Assembly: GCA_963930775.1 (NCBI GenBank)
Contig: OZ005701.1
Coordinates: 992,001-1,056,000, forward strand
Length of the DNA stretch: 64,000 bases
Direction of reading: 5' to 3'
Source: Cliona cf. orientalis
Taxonomy: Eukaryota; Porifera; Demospongiae; Clionaida; Clionaidae
The notes under the pieces are model-generated. The model saw only the letters and a list, made by a program, of their open reading frames with translations. It did no database searches and had not been told where the DNA came from. Below are positions 1,370 to 62,842 of this stretch, piece after piece. The translations under genes were made by a program, and so were the position numbers. The first letter of the stretch is position 1; each line of letters starts with the position of its first letter.

Positions 1370-6360
<4,991 letters not shown>

Positions 6361-34708: not shown

Positions 34709-37700
34709 ATATTATCTCTTCCTCCCTCCTATTCAATAAATTTTTAGCTGGCCATCATATTTTACCAAATTAATGATTTTGAAGATTCCATGCATGCATC
34801 TTTCTTGTAGACTGAGGGTTACGCTGTTGATTGGTCAAGAACTGTCATTGGTCGGCTGGCAACTGGCGACTGTTCCAAGAACATCCATATTTGGAACCCG
34901 AGGGACGACGGGTCATGGAATGTGGACCAGAGACCTTTCGCTGCTCACACGAAATCAGTGGAGGACATTCAATGGAGCCCAAATGAAGCAACTGTGAGGA
35001 GAAACTTCAATTTTTGTCCTCTCTCTCTTTGTTAAAAAAAATCTGACTAGATTTCCCATTAGTATTATTACGTCCCTTGAGCCTTACCAGATATTTGATG
35101 TGTATATTTTTGGGAGGGGGGAGGGGGGAGGGGGTGGAGATGGTGGATTATAACATCAAGGGCTTGTCTATAAGCCCTTGATAACATCTATCTTTAATAA
35201 TAATTATTACTGTTGTATATAACCCCCCCCCCCCCCCATCTCTGTGTTAATAATAAATTTCTGAGTATGCTTTAATGAGGTAGTATTTGAAGGATTGTTA
35301 TGTCCTAACCTGGAGGGCATAAAAGATGTGCTCTTCTACAAGTTCAGAAGGCCCACGATTGGTCAGAATTGAAGTGCCTTGTGCACAACAAGGGTGGCCA
35401 TAGAGATGCATTCTCGAACGAACGGCGCGAAGCGCTGCACGTTTCGAGAGGCCTGCTCACTCAGCAGGCCACCGAGCCTCGAGAATAGCGAGAGACGAGG
35501 TCTGTTCTTCATCATAGCCTGGTGGTAGATTTGACAGAGCGAGGACGTCGCCATTGCAGTACTGTGGCGAGTTCGAGCAGCTGCTATTGACCTGCATGGA
35601 GGGGTGTGGTCTACGAAGCATATAATAAGTTCAAAGTTCGTGCTGTTGCAGCTAGCTGGCATGCGCATTGTACTAATGATTGACAGCTAGGGAGATGAGA
35701 TTTTCTGTGAGCTTTAATACTGTGAATAACTCATGCATATTAGCCATTGTTCCATGATTGTGACATCAAACATACTTGACATTTACAATACAAGACTTAG
35801 TATGTTTGATATACCAATAATGTTACAAGTTATTCACAGTAATGCCCCCCAGGTAAGGACATTGATTGTCTGAAACAATATTTATCGTTGATTATGAGCT
35901 ACATTTTGATCTTTGTTCCAGTTCCATATCTATTACTGTTACCAGCCCTTGCTGTTACAAAGATATGCGTTTGCTATACTATGACATGTGTCTTTGAAGA
36001 AACTTTGTATGTATATGGCATAGTCTAACATGTTCAGGACCATGGTAGCTGTGTTCATCTGCTACATTTTGGTTTTTGTTCCAGCTCCATAGCTCTTTCC
36101 GTTGCCGAGATACACTTTGCGCGCGCCGCGGTATAGAGTTAATGATATTCATAGCTCTTAATTACGTCATACATTCCAACGTGAAAACCATACGCGTTTT
36201 GCTACCCCCTGTCCCAGCTCAATAAATAGCATTTTCTGGGAGGTACTATCGATAACGGGGCTAGACGGTGTCAGGGGTATCCCCTCTGGCACCTGCAGCT
36301 GAAAACTGCACGTGGTCCTGGGCATATATGGCTTACATGTAGGGGTCGCCCAGGTTCCTCCCTTGAATACCCCCCATCCCTGGAAGTATGCCAGCTGCGG
36401 TAATGTCCGCAGGGTCACTCCCAAACGGATCACCGAAGCTGCGGCACCTCGGCCCGGGGGGAGGGATGATTGGGACTATTTTTCCATCATTTTGATGTAA
36501 CAATTGTTAATTATTCACAGTATTGCCCTCCACTATTTCACTATTTCATTTTGCTTTGGACGTTTCAGCCTCTGAGCGACCAATCGGATCACAGTATTTG
36601 TTACAATGTAGGTATTGTAGGTATTGTAAGGTATTGTAAAGTATTGTAGGGTAATGTAGGTCAGGAATCTGATTGATCAGTTGGCGGTCCACTATTTCAC
36701 TTTGTTTTGCTCGGGATGCTACAGCCTCGGGCCTCTGAGTGACCAATCGGATCACAGTATTTGTTACAACTATAGGGTAATGTAGGTATTGTAGGTATTG
36801 TAAGGTATTGTAGGGTAATGTAGGTCAGGAATCTGATTGATCAGTTGGCGGTCCACTATTTCACTTTGTTTTGCTCGGGATGCTACAGCCTCGGGCCTCT
36901 GAGTGACCAATCGGATCACAGTATTTGTTACAACTATAGGGTAATGTAGGTATTGTAGGTCAGGAATCTGATTGGTCAGTTGGCGGTCCACTACTTCACT
37001 TCGCTTTGCTCGGGTTGCTAAATCCAGCCTTGGGCCTCTGAGTGACCAATCGGATCACAGTATTTTCTATACATACCTGTGTGATGTCAATTATGAGGCA
37101 GGCTCCTTGTTAATACGGAAATTTACATGACATTGTACATTACTGTAGTATTAATATTATATAATCGTGCAGGTCTTTGCATCCTGTTCCGTGGACCAGA
37201 CCATTAGGATATGGGACTCTCGGGCCGCCCCTCACAAGGCCTGCATGATCACCACCAGGGCACATGACAGCGACGTCAACGTTATATCGTGGAACGAAAA
37301 GGACCCGTTCATTGCATCGGGCGGAGACGATGGCGTCATTAAGATATGGGATTTGAGACAGTTCAAAAAGTAAGCCCGTTTTCTATGATAGTTGGAAATT
37401 TTTCTGTTGCAATCTGCAAGGTTATAGGATAGGACCTGGTGATATTGCCATACCATGGAGATGGAATTTTTTATTTTTCATGGAAAGGCAATCTTCACAA
37501 TTTTTTTACTATTAAATTTTGACAATTTACTCGTTAAGTTTACTCTCTCTCTCTGTTCCTCCCTCCAGAGGTGAGACAACTGCCCAGTTCAAGCACCATG
37601 GAGGGGCCATCACGTCCATCGAATGGCATCCAGATGACTCAACAGTCTTTGCATCAGCTGGGGAAGATGACCAGGTCAGCAAATTTGTAGACAATTAATT

Positions 37701-47546: not shown

Positions 47547-49757
47547 CTAAAATAGTTGTAGTCGCTTATTATCAGTATCACAGACATACAAAATGCCATC
47601 ACTGTCCACAGCTAATCCACTAGGACTGTCAAACTCTCCTTCTTTGCGTCCTCTTTTACCAAATGAAGTGATAAATTTCCCTTCCTTGGTGAATACTGAC
47701 ACACAATGAGTATTTCCCCATTCAGTGACATAGACTAGATCGCCAGCAATACAGATCGAGTGAGGATGATCCAGTTTACATGATGAACTACCTTTTTCAC
47801 TAAATGTATACAAAAATACTCCTTGAGTGTTAAAGACTTGAATACAGTTGTCACCATAGTTGCAAACATACATATTGCCAACTTTATCACAGGCTACTCC
47901 AATTGTTCGTCCAGTCTGCAGACAGTCAATTATTTTTTCCAAGCATAGGTCCATTGTAAAAACTAGGAGCTGGTGATTACCTGCATCAGTTACAATAACA
48001 TGATCACCAAATACTGCTATACCGCGGGCAGTAAAACCTTTGATTGTAGGCTTGATAGCCTTAACTTTTACACTTTCTTTGTCAAACTTGACTATATTCC
48101 CATTGTCACCATCCGTTACATATACATTGTCATCATCATCCACAGCAATACCAAAGAGAAACTCACATCCATGCTGAGACTTGGTTATCCTTTTGTCAAG
48201 AAATAGAATATCACCCTCACATTCAGCAAACACCAACTCACCACAGGAATTGAATGATATACCCTGTCCTTCAAGATCAGAAATAATCTTGAGTGGCTTA
48301 CCAAGCTGGGTGGGTAGAATATGGACAAATACAGGGAAAGGGCTTCCAGCTACTGGTAGATCACCAACTGTGACTTTCAGCTGATGGCGACCTCGGACAC
48401 TGGGAATGTACTCAATCTCATATGCATCGTCAGATTTTTGCTCTACTTTGGCTTGAACTACAGTTTCATTAGCAGAACTTTCTAATTTTGCTTTGACTAA
48501 CGTAGGCTTCTTGCATTGCATAATATTATGGCATAATGACACCTGCAGCTCGATTTTTGATGCCTTTCCAACCTCGGCATTTCCCATACCACCTTTGGGT
48601 ACAACCAACTTGAATAGATCAGCAGGTGAAGTTGTAACAACTGCTTTCTCCAGGCAGAGTGTTTTCAATTCCTTAGCACATTCTATCCCTACCATAATGT
48701 CAGCCTCTTCCACTGGCTTTAATTTAGCAGCACTGCTCTGCTGATGCTTTTTTGTCTCCTCATCTATTCGATTCAGTATCTGTGTGTGGATGGTCACCAG
48801 TTCTTCCTCAGTTGCATTCTCAATGTTCTGTTCCACAAACTCCACTAGACTCTGAATAGTACCTGATACATTCTCAAATTCTTTCTCTTGGATATTTAAC
48901 CGCTCGAGCTTTCCTTTTGCAAGACTAGACGTTTTCTCAAGTAGCTCTCTTTTACGTTGCTCAAGGATCTCATATAATTCCTGAAAGGATTGCTCAATGC
49001 TTGCAGCTACTGTTGCTCCTTGCTTCTCAATATCAGAGTTTACTGATTTGATGGATTTTGTAGCATCATATAAAGTCCCCTGCATTTCTTTGAGGGGGGC
49101 AAGGCGTTCAGTGAGCTTTCCCTTAATTGCAGGGGCAGCCTTCTTCACGAAATCGTACTTGTGACCGGCATGGTCATCAAGGATGCAGTCTCGACAAATG
49201 AGATGCTTGCATTCATAGCAGTAGATTTTCATTTGCTCCTCGTGAACTTTACACATTGGGGGCGGGGCTTGTTTCGGAAGAAGCTGTTTGGCCCCGCCCT
49301 CTTTCAGCTCCTCAAGCGTGGTTACTTTGTGATCAACAAAAACTCTCATTTTCTTGTGAACCTCGACGCAGTTGTCGCAAATAAAAGTAGCACACTGGCG
49401 ACAGAATGCTACCGCCTTGGATTCCGCGCATTGCTCACACATTGCTTCAACCTTTCCGTGGGCTTTTTCCATTTTCGCGTGGAGTTCGGTCATTCTGTTG
49501 ACGAAAAAAGCTGTCGGCAATTGATCAGGGTCATTTTGCGGAAGAACGGTGGGACTTCGACATTCTGGGCAAGAAAAGGGCTTGTTTTCGCCAGCTCTCC
49601 GCGCTAGCGCCTGGACACACCCTTTGCAGTAGTAGTGAAGGCACGGAAGGATCTTGGGCTCTTGGAAATGATCATGGCAGACTGGGCAGGTGATTTCCTT
49701 CTCTAGCTCTTTGACTCCCCTTTGGATATCTTCAGGCTGGTTGCTTTTAGTTGCCAT
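47547..49757 (-). CDS. TRIM-NHL protein (TRIM2/3/71-like), intronless
   Basis: One uninterrupted frame, 736 residues. The order is RING (C24, C27, C39, H41, C44, C47 and a distal C-x2-C in SCPECRS), two B-boxes (about 105-145 and 168-205), a coiled coil (about 215-330), a filamin-type Ig domain (about 385-480, ending VAGSPFPVFVHI), and NHL beta-propeller repeats to the end. The NHL marks are FGIAVDDDDNVYVTD, TIGVACDKVGNMYVCN and SGLAVDSDGILYVCD. This is the layout of TRIM2, TRIM3, TRIM71 and Brat relatives: E3 ubiquitin ligases or RNA-binding regulators. Which of these it resembles most cannot be decided by eye. The lack of introns in an intron-rich neighbourhood suggests an origin by retroposition, or membership of an expanded intronless TRIM family. 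Confidence 0.93.
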   Translation of the reverse strand: MATKSNQPEDIQRGVKELEKEITCPVCHDHFQEPKILPCLHYYCKGCVQALARRAGENKPFSCPECRSPTVLPQNDPDQLPTAFFVNRMTELHAKMEKAHGKVEAMCEQCAESKAVAFCRQCATFICDNCVEVHKKMRVFVDHKVTTLEELKEGGAKQLLPKQAPPPMCKVHEEQMKIYCYECKHLICRDCILDDHAGHKYDFVKKAAPAIKGKLTERLAPLKEMQGTLYDATKSIKSVNSDIEKQGATVAASIEQSFQELYEILEQRKRELLEKTSSLAKGKLERLNIQEKEFENVSGTIQSLVEFVEQNIENATEEELVTIHTQILNRIDEETKKHQQSSAAKLKPVEEADIMVGIECAKELKTLCLEKAVVTTSPADLFKLVVPKGGMGNAEVGKASKIELQVSLCHNIMQCKKPTLVKAKLESSANETVVQAKVEQKSDDAYEIEYIPSVRGRHQLKVTVGDLPVAGSPFPVFVHILPTQLGKPLKIISDLEGQGISFNSCGELVFAECEGDILFLDKRITKSQHGCEFLFGIAVDDDDNVYVTDGDNGNIVKFDKESVKVKAIKPTIKGFTARGIAVFGDHVIVTDAGNHQLLVFTMDLCLEKIIDCLQTGRTIGVACDKVGNMYVCNYGDNCIQVFNTQGVFLYTFSEKGSSSCKLDHPHSICIAGDLVYVTEWGNTHCVSVFTKEGKFITSFGKRGRKEGEFDSPSGLAVDSDGILYVCDTDNKRLQLF

Positions 49758-49962
49758 CGTATATATTCAAATTAGTCAGCAAAATACAATGAAGGGGCGC
49801 GGTTCTATCATGTGATGCTCGCTCGAGTCCGGGGACTGGGAACTGGGAACGAGATTAGAGCACTCACGCTACATGTAATTATGAGCATGCGTGCGATATG
49901 CAAAAGGCCAACATTGGGCCAACAATGATTGATAAAAAAAACATATATTATACAAGATCCAT

Positions 49963-59366: not shown

Positions 59367-59581
59367 TACCGTATTTCTTCTAAAAATTCGGCATGAAAAT
59401 AATAATATTGCTTTAGCTTCGCCGAGTTAATATTCAACATTCTGTCTGCGTGCGCATTCCATTCCCGTTTATAGCATATACGCATGACGACCTTTGCCGA
59501 AAAATTAGAGACTATATTCAATCATTCGGTAAAGGGGTGCCGAATAATTAGAAGGGCCGAATTTTTAGAAGAAATACGGTA
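59367..59581. mobile_element. MITE, TACCGTATTTCTTC family, copy 1
   Basis: A 215-bp element with inverted ends TACCGTATTTCTTCTAAAA and TTTTAGAAGAAATACGGTA. Its interior is nearly identical to the copy at 60760-60983, including GCGTGCGCATTCCATTCCC. It starts 33 bases after the TTLL12 stop, so it probably lies in that gene's 3' UTR. Confidence 0.92.
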
Positions 59582-60104: not shown

Positions 60105-60759
60105 TTATATTCGACTCAAAAGTCCACAGGACTAGTTTCGCTAGGCAATCTATTAGAGACTAATGTTGGATAGGTTGGAACCCCCAACTGTAAGGCTTTC
60201 AGTGCATGATTCCGGCAACCCCCACCCAAACCATGCAGAGTCTACAGGAAAGGTATGCAGACGCAAGAGTGTACTGTTGACTGGACTAAATAAGTACAGG
60301 ACCGGAGGAGGACTGCAACAATGGCGTACTTATTAATAGGGGTAGGTAAATTATGCCGGCATAGTTTTGAGCATAATAGGTGTGTGTAAGCATTTGAGAA
60401 TTATGCTAGCATTATAGGCATCAACTGGCATAATTTTGAGGCACACAGTTGCAGGTAGTTGTTCAACACAAGCAAATTGACCTTGATCATAAGGCCATAT
60501 AAAATAACTTACTTGATTCTCATCCACCTTTTTCCAAAAAATAGGGGCGGGAGGAGGCATTTTATTTTTATTTTTTACTCATCAGGACACTAGAAAGAGC
60601 AGCATCTGGAGCATATTTTCGAGATATTTGGTAAAGGGTCGCTACTGCGCACGCGCGATAGCAATAAAATTCATAGAGGCGGCCTGTAAAAATTGGGTTG
60701 ATATTTCATATAAGAGTCACGAAATATGCAAAGTCAGCATTTACGCACTGTATATATAT

Positions 60760-60983
60760 TACCGTATTTCTTCTAAAAATTCGGCATGAAAATAATAATA
60801 TTGCTTTAGCTTCGCCGAATTTTTAGAGGTTAATGTTCAACATTCTGTCTGCGTGCGCATTCCATTCCCGTTTATAGTATATACGCATGACGACCTTTGC
60901 CGAAAAATTAGAGACTATATTCAATCATTCGGTAAAGGGTGCCGAATAATTAGAAGGGCCGAATTTTTAGAAGAAATACGGTA
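60760..60983. mobile_element. MITE, TACCGTATTTCTTC family, copy 2 (nested)
   Basis: A 224-bp copy of the element at 59367-59581, with the same ends and slightly more interior (GCCGAATTTTTAGAGG). It is inserted in the left arm of the hAT-like element at a TA and is absent from the right arm, so it arrived after that element formed. Confidence 0.92.
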
Positions 60984-61014
60984 TATTGTGATATAGTATC
61001 TTGGTATCATTTGT

Positions 61015-62341
61015 GCCTCTGGTGCCCTTGGTGCCCTTGGTGCCCCTGGTGTCGTTGGTGCCTCTGGTCACTCTGGTGCCCTTGGTGCCTCTGGTGCCTC
61101 TGGTGCCTCTGGTGCCCTTGGTGCCCTTGGTGCCCCTGGTGTCATTGGTGACCCTGGTGCCCTTGGTGCCCCTGGTGTCGTTGGTGCCCTTGCATAGCTG
61201 CCAAGGGTTCAACCTGGTGAGGAGTGAGATTTAGACTCGCCACCAATAGTACAATACTTTACGATTAGAGTACCAGGAGTGAGATCCAATATAAAACAAT
61301 ACATTTTCCTGCTGGTGTCGGGAGTGAGATTAGGTAGATAGGAGTGAGACTCACTCCCAAGGAGTGAGACTTGGAAGGTATGCCCTTGGTGCCCCTGGTG
61401 CCTCTGGTGCCCTTGGTGCCTCTGGTGCCTCTGGTGCCCTTGGTGCCCCTGGTGTCATTGGTGCCCCTGGTGCCCTTGGTGCCCCTGGTGTCGTTGGTGC
61501 CCTTGGTGCCCCTGGTGCCTCTGGTGCCCTTGGTGCCTCTGGTGTCGTTGGTGCCCCTGGTGCCTCTGGTGCCCTTGGTGCCCCTGGTGTCGTTGGTGCC
61601 TCTGGTGCCCCTGGTGCCCCTGGTGCCCTTGGTGCCTCTGGTGTCCTTGGTGTTGTTAGTGTCGTTGCAATTGGTGGTTCTGGTGTCCTTGGTGCCTAAG
61701 GTGCCCTTGGTGCCTCTGGTGTTGTTGGTGTCGTTGGTGCCTCTGATGCCCATGATGCCTAAGGTGCCCTTGGTGTCTCTGGTGTTGTTGGTGTCACCAA
61801 CGGCACCAAGGGCACCAGAGGCACCAACGACACCAGAGGCACCAGAGGCACCAAGGACACCAGAGACACCAAGGACACCAGGGGCACCAACGACACCAGG
61901 GGCACCAAGGGCACCAAGGGCACCAGAGGCACCAGGGGCACCAAGGGCACCAAGGGCACCAGGGGTACCAAGGGCACCAGAGGCACCAACGACACCAGGG
62001 GCACCAGAGGTACCAGGGACACCAAGGGCACCAGAGGCACCAACGACACTAGGGGCACGAAGGGCACCAGAGGCACCAGAGGCACCAGAGGCACCAACGA
62101 CACCAGGGGCACCAGGGGCACCAGAGGCACCAACGACACTAGGGGCACGAAGGGCACCAGAGGCACCAACGACACCAGAGACACCAAGGACACCAGGGGT
62201 ACCAACGACACCAGGGGCACCAAGGGCACCAGAGGCACCAGGGGCACCAAGGGCACCAAGGGCACCAGAGGCACCAGGGGCACCAAGGGCACCAAGGGCA
62301 CCAGGGGCACCAGGGGCACCAAGGGCACCAGAGGCACCGAC
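61015..62341. repeat. 9-bp minisatellite (GGTGCCNNT), inverted at its centre
   Basis: About 145 units of 9 bp, mostly GGTGCCCCT, GGTGCCTCT, GGTGCCCTT and GGTGTCGTT, interrupted at 61194-61378 by a unique segment. From about 61795 the array continues as the reverse complement (AGGGGCACC etc.), which makes the whole array a giant imperfect palindrome. All six frames are open over long stretches; these are repeat artefacts. Confidence 0.97.
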
Positions 62342-62842
62342 ACCAAGATACTATATCACAATACAATATATTCTCTTCATGTGCTCCTGATATTATACAG
62401 TGCGTAAATGCTGACTTTGCATATTTCGTGACTCTTATATTATGAAATATCAACCAAAAATTGGGACGGGCGGGGATGAGAATCAAGTAAGTTATTTTAT
62501 ATGGCCTAATGCCTGGCATATTGTGGACTGGTAAAGGGTTGGTCAATCAGCTGGTGCCCACTTTCAAATCCGAGCACACGTAAAACTAAAATTGCTAGTT
62601 ACACTCGATGATAGTGTAACCAAGTCTCCTTATGTCTCATATCGGTTTTTTTGTTATAGTCGGTTCAACTTGAGCATAATGGGCAATATATTGGGAATTA
62701 TAGGTGTACTTCTTGAGCATTATTAGGGAATTTTTGAGCATTTGAGAATAGCATTAGGTAAAAATTAGCATAATTTACCTACCCCTACTTATTAATATCA
62801 ATGACCCTGCATATTATGGCAGGAAGCTAGAGTTATGTCCCG

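Follow-up and report, generated by a model that had tools for sequence, protein, structure and literature searches.

The question raised by positions 60337-62788 of the analyzed stretch of Cliona cf. orientalis DNA (the window, 64,000 nucleotides) is whether a region most of which can pair with itself is one transposable element or several. The initial annotation had described a single hAT-like element with a minisatellite as its core. Our analysis favors a nest of DNA transposons, with a probability of roughly 0.92, the innermost of the three being a non-autonomous foldback element. A hAT-like MITE would have arrived first, a 246-bp Harbinger-like MITE would then have inserted into it, and a 1.76-kb foldback would have inserted into the 246-bp MITE, generating an 8-bp duplication. 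Two small elements would have landed later in the left arm of the foldback. What the initial annotation observed is real, but several nested elements were taken for one.

The outermost element (layer 1, 60337..62788) has inverted 20-bp termini (TAGGGGTAGGTAAATTATGC), outside which lies an 8-bp duplication, CTTATTAA, at 60329-60336 and 62789-62796, as had been annotated. The 8-bp duplication and the TAGGG-type terminus, here starting TAGGGG, are those of a hAT-like MITE, in agreement with the first assignment of these ends. The genome-wide search for other copies, which covered an assembly of 216.8 Mb in 149 contigs (G000), returned 159 exact 20-nt termini (79 forward and 80 reverse) and none for the reversed pattern used as a control. 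Both ends were found in 11 of the 22 loci given to a paired-end test, corresponding to nine distinct places with copies of 404-460 bp; the test required ends 250-900 bp apart, and copies with large inserts are thus uncounted. Seven of the nine distinct copies have an exact 8-bp duplication, the exceptions being L014 and L015. In the window the element's own sequence comprises 60337-60492 and about 62510-62788, 435 bp in total. Removal in silico of layer 2 and one TAA left a joined stretch of 474 bp, 435 bp of it outer MITE, which aligned unbroken across the join, at 80-88%, to 18 of the 22 loci of the outer family, representing 15 distinct places, while L018, L019, L021 and L023 aligned partially. 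Other inserts were found in L018 (~1 kb) and L023 (~0.6 kb). The outer MITE without its inner elements therefore matches array-free relatives, which contradicts the view that the minisatellite is its core.

PIF/Harbinger elements are recognized by a 3-bp TWA duplication and a GGCC-type terminus, and both are present in the second element (layer 2, 60493..62506), which starts with GGCCATATAAAATAAC... and is flanked by TAA. It is split by the foldback into two parts (60493-60695 and 62456-62506, each with one copy of the 8-bp foldback duplication). The left part was scored at 40 places among the matches listed, the window one included, with 98-100% identity. All five copies fetched whole are 246 bp long, and four of them are flanked at each end by TAA or TTA, the exception being L081. 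Each of these intact copies also contains the empty site of the foldback, with AAAAATTG present once, and the joined foldback flanks agree with the five at 98.8-99.6% over 248-260 bp. These empty sites are direct evidence that the array arrived as a separate element. It is very unlikely that the region is a single hAT-like element that duplicated its own core minisatellite across its axis, since two more duplications and pairs of inverted repeats are enclosed by the outer ones, both empty sites were found, and at other places the same core is bounded by ends and 8-bp duplications of its own; the outer duplication and termini are nevertheless real, and most of the region does pair with itself. 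The several hundred bases of paired subterminal sequence that had been ascribed to the outer element do exist as pairs, although they are mainly the terminal repeats of the 246-bp MITE and of the foldback.

The foldback itself (layer 3) occupies 60696..62455 between the two copies of AAAAATTG (60688..60695 and 62456..62463) and has the termini GGTTGATATTTC...AAGAGTCACGAAATATGC. Its ends (GGTTGATATTTCATATAAGAGTCACGAAATATGC) are inverted over ~60 bp, with the left terminal inverted repeat at 60696..60761 and the right one, which contains a 3-nt insertion, at about 62390..62455. The arms are made of a 9-bp minisatellite (GGTGCCNNT, or GGTGYCNNT), on the plus strand at 61015..61794, where it is broken at 61193-61382, and on the minus strand at 61795..62341. 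The strand flip described near 61795 was confirmed: within 60696-62455 there are 57 matches to GGTGYC, the last ending at 61790, and 54 to GRCACC, the first starting at 61802, without mixing, a separation that randomly ordered matches would show with a computed probability of about 1e-32. The match at 60938, counted among the 57, is a stray within an inserted MITE. The capacity for self-folding was also borne out: folded as RNA, 61381-62138 reached -680.7 kcal/mol, and its dinucleotide shuffles (n = 30) averaged -373.2 kcal/mol (SD 7.6). No RNA family of Rfam matched 60300-62830 at the gathering threshold. The left arm contains the MITE seen initially (layer 4, 60762..60981; 220 bp, with 24-bp inverted ends and TA on both flanks), a second window copy of which lies about 1.2 kb upstream at 59369-59579. 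A second insertion had been overlooked, a dispersed repeat of ~190 bp inside the left array (layer 5, 61193..61382) with 24 genome matches, counting itself, at 90-100%. The CCCTTG flanking it may be a 6-bp duplication, a reading that is ambiguous within a 9-bp array.

On the minus strand, 61268-62350 of the foldback arm is a 361-aa frame of Gly-X-Y type that matches Pfam Collagen (E 6.7e-36), and long frames are open in the array. That the array is collagen-like coding sequence, on its own or captured by the element, is nonetheless extremely improbable. Both strands contain long open frames. When 1810 blocks were read in the GGT-GCC-NNT frame, codon positions 1-2 (array positions 5, 7 and 8) were the variable ones, with an entropy of 0.75-1.51 bits, and the third positions hardly varied (0.02-0.24 bits), which is the reverse of coding constraint. 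A coding reading of the array is rejected on these two grounds. The Collagen match most likely arises as a side effect of the 9-bp repeat beginning with GGT, because the variation affects the first two codon positions and spares the third. Such foldback arrays could pass as collagen genes in automatic annotation.

The sequence at the axis (61784..61812) is kept across a subfamily of elements. Its pattern was found at 23 genomic places (control 0), 20 of which lie in 19 elements with inward-facing ends, the window copy included, when compared by eye with the lists of termini; of the other three, one is beside a single end, one is between same-facing ends and one has no end in the lists. No motif match was misoriented about the best dividing point in any of the 10 complete copies. 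Likewise, all 2151 motif matches in 13 axis-oriented elements (nine of the 10 complete copies, the window copy, L086, L087 and L088) run in one direction within an arm. Lacking a match to the axis pattern, the tenth complete copy, L076, was left out of this set; it too flips once. The sequence flanking the axis is recognizably alike, whichever its orientation, in most of the 13 elements, and immediately beyond the axis the window copy diverges from the subfamily sequence on one side. Assembling inverted arrays is difficult and the assembly sequence alone was examined here; still, it is extremely unlikely that the inversion is an assembly artefact, since an error could hardly repeat it and the same axis occurs at 23 places on many contigs, with the same geometry in 10/10 complete copies and 13/13 axis-oriented elements (nine common to both). 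The presence of the same axis in other elements also means that the inversion predates the spread of the subfamily to which the window copy belongs. An array growing across its own axis in the window copy, as first proposed, does not agree with this; judging from these sequences, the inversion most likely arose once, before these copies spread.

Some relatives depart from the simple arrangement. The element at C1:10649537 (L077, 838-4801) holds two axis sites and is a rearranged or duplicated foldback; in the part seen, its array runs forward, reverse, forward, reverse, and these three strand switches indicate that at least one relative is rearranged. The extra flips may be real or the product of misassembly. 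In L106 (C6:5991820-5993340), two foldback ends of the same direction lie 1.3 kb apart with one axis between them, an arrangement in which one element lacks its right end and another comes after it.

The symmetry of the arms might be maintained, and not merely inherited, if copying from one arm of an element to the other, through gene conversion or hairpin-primed repair, were the main process keeping them alike. This process would be compatible with a foldback inside a nest, although we consider it rather unlikely as the main cause. The mean fraction of shared 36-mers is 0.163 within an element versus 0.121 between opposite arms of different elements, and the observed value was reached by 1 of 20000 re-pairings. 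However, the shared fraction is no lower for same-side arms of different elements (means of 0.175 and 0.196), so that copying from arm to arm is at most modest, and part of the excess could come from subfamily structure, which is uncontrolled in the 36-mer test.

The nested foldback belongs to a dispersed family. Its terminus core, with up to 3 mismatches, was found at 37 forward and 35 reverse genomic places (reversed control 0), and a looser 25-base terminus at 61 and 62 places (controls 1 and 3). Among the 25 elements with both ends read, 19, the window copy included, have exact 8-bp duplications and four (L069, L071, L088 and L096/L097) have no clear one. The other two of the 25 have one mismatch. 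The window copy had first been scored with a mismatch (exact count then 18/25) only because of its 3-nt insertion; its true duplication is exact. The duplications are AT-rich. The 10 complete copies range from 1.2 to 3.7 kb, with ends 95-100% alike, and the array is present in 13 of the 14 relatives fetched first, the remaining one (L075) having an end without array; L075, together with L067, L073 and L077, is incomplete in the stretch fetched. Long inverted arms with tandem repeats form most of the element, with L075 and L077 as exceptions, and target-site duplications accompany multiple dispersed copies, a structure proper to foldbacks. The duplications, empty sites and copies suggest that the foldback would most likely move by cut-and-paste, driven in trans by a transposase. 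The arrays would lengthen and shorten by slippage or unequal exchange, which fits the variation in length.

Related ends were also found in front of different arrays. L084 and L085 have their outer 34 bp in common with the window foldback, with about four differences, and diverge beyond this point. Their inverted arrays have units of 54-79 bp (67 bp in L085) and an axis spacer of their own that both share. These units contain stretches resembling the 9-bp repeat, and the longest strings common with the window array are 23 bases in L084 and 22 in L085. L109 (7383 bp, with CTAGAAAT duplicated on both sides) shares about its outer 44 bp, with several differences, and has inverted arrays of ~28 bp and a non-array interior of ~4 kb. 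In L110, an element of 6.8 kb on C2 with CATTTTTT duplicated on both sides, only the outer ~25 bp are shared and the inverted array has an 18/36-bp unit in the half of the element examined. The longest strings that L109 and L110 share with the window array are only 10 and 9 bases, and no relation to the 9-bp array is therefore claimed. The 28-bp and 18/36-bp types are represented by one element each. L109 contains most of its left arm in two copies (106-802 and 4876-5582, 98.6% identity), as might result from the recombination or nesting of two elements.

We tentatively propose, while regarding it as less probable than its negation, that one transposase lineage would recognize only the outer ~25-45 bp and that the arms would have been replaced several times, mirror-image each time, by one or another minisatellite (the 9-bp unit, a 67-bp derivative of it, 28 bp and 18/36 bp). 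The arrays would then be interchangeable modules, selected for multi-site docking or pairing and symmetrized by hairpin-primed copying. If this were true, one genome would offer a natural replicate experiment on the origin of foldback arms.

Candidates for a transposase were sought through the hAT (PF05699), MULE (PF10551) and KDZ (PF18758) domains, of which the genome contains at least 148, 58 and 68 matches, respectively. The candidates scored were the best 150 of 230 for hAT, the best 150 of 153 for MULE and 107 of 107 for KDZ, and they were compared with the 72 places of the terminus core and 100 of the 123 looser-terminus places. By eye, none of the listed terminus pairs enclosed a hAT, MULE or KDZ match; the closest were one of KDZ, about 6 kb outside the element at C1:2238479, and one of MULE, about 10 kb from C5:4220348. 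The 7.4-kb L109 has 10 listed open frames: six, in its non-array interior, matched no Pfam family at the cut-off, and the other four are mostly array. The middle of L110 is mostly array in the half examined, and the remaining about 3.3 kb may hold a transposase. The hAT dimerization-domain matches are themselves strongly clustered: roughly 90 of the 148 listed are on C1, the longest contig listed, all beyond about 13.9 Mb (by eye).

hAT elements have a YARNG-type terminus and a duplication of the form nTnnnnAn. The 8-bp duplication of the foldback fits hAT in length, and its terminus, GGTTGATA, is not of the YARNG type. The 20 foldback duplications scored with no more than one mismatch include five with T at position 2 and three with A at position 7, and as a set they do not follow the nTnnnnAn pattern. 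The architecture is that of foldback elements, the 8-bp duplication occurring without the hAT terminus or duplication pattern.

The FB elements of Drosophila have long inverted arms of short tandem repeats, mostly non-coding copies, variable length and a 9-bp duplication. In architecture, the present element resembles FB and foldback-like elements by its long inverted arms of tandem repeats, the lack of coding sequence in most copies and the variation in length, and differs from FB in that its duplication is of 8 bp and its unit of 9 bp. In the TU elements of sea urchin, the inverted repeats are long and contain 15-bp units in tandem, and the duplications are of 8 bp; the present element is like them, as so described, in its inverted arms of tandem units and its 8-bp duplications. 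No paper naming TU elements was found in our literature search. In flies, foldback-like elements generate inversions and satellite arrays. Here, tens of elements have the same ends, one subfamily has kept its axis and others have different arrays, which is perhaps enough to order, by comparison, the steps by which such arms originate.

In the available text on Tetris/DAIBAM of Drosophila virilis, a non-autonomous foldback is described with tandem repeats within inverted repeats, ends in common with a shorter element and 8-10-bp duplications (PMC4079207); a 1983 paper on a sea urchin transposon is among its references. The same text gives a repeat of ~220 bp, a middle domain and a flanking domain reaching 866 bp (PMC4079207). 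As far as that description goes, the present foldback is likewise non-autonomous, with tandem repeats in inverted repeats and ends common with a shorter element, but it has a unit of 9 bp and arms meeting with almost no middle (PMC4079207). For Galileo, a member of the P superfamily in Drosophila, the portions of the reports available describe conservation between species of only ~40 bp at the extremities, and the likeness to the present element lies in the long, internally repetitive inverted repeats and variable array length (PMC3573991; PMC3688188). Galileo, by the same portions, has a known transposase and 7-bp duplications, whereas the foldback here has 8-bp duplications and no transposase was found in the hAT, MULE and KDZ searches. 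The Galileo THAP domain is reported, in the text available, to bind sites within tandem repeats (PMC3688188). By analogy, the present arrays would persist since repeats near the ends would offer a transposase extra binding sites.

Among the literature matches listed, no title names a family like the present foldback, and the foldback papers, in the parts available, describe no terminal lineage with several different inverted minisatellites. Notable in the present foldback is this association of one terminal lineage with different minisatellite arms.

Elsewhere in the window, a tandem repeat of 164 bp is present at 36568-36960 (2.4 copies, 96% matches), with a sub-repeat of 9-10 bp inside it. 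The minus strand at 47547-49766 has an open frame of 739 aa which, by eye, is a candidate for a RING/B-box/NHL (TRIM-type) protein.
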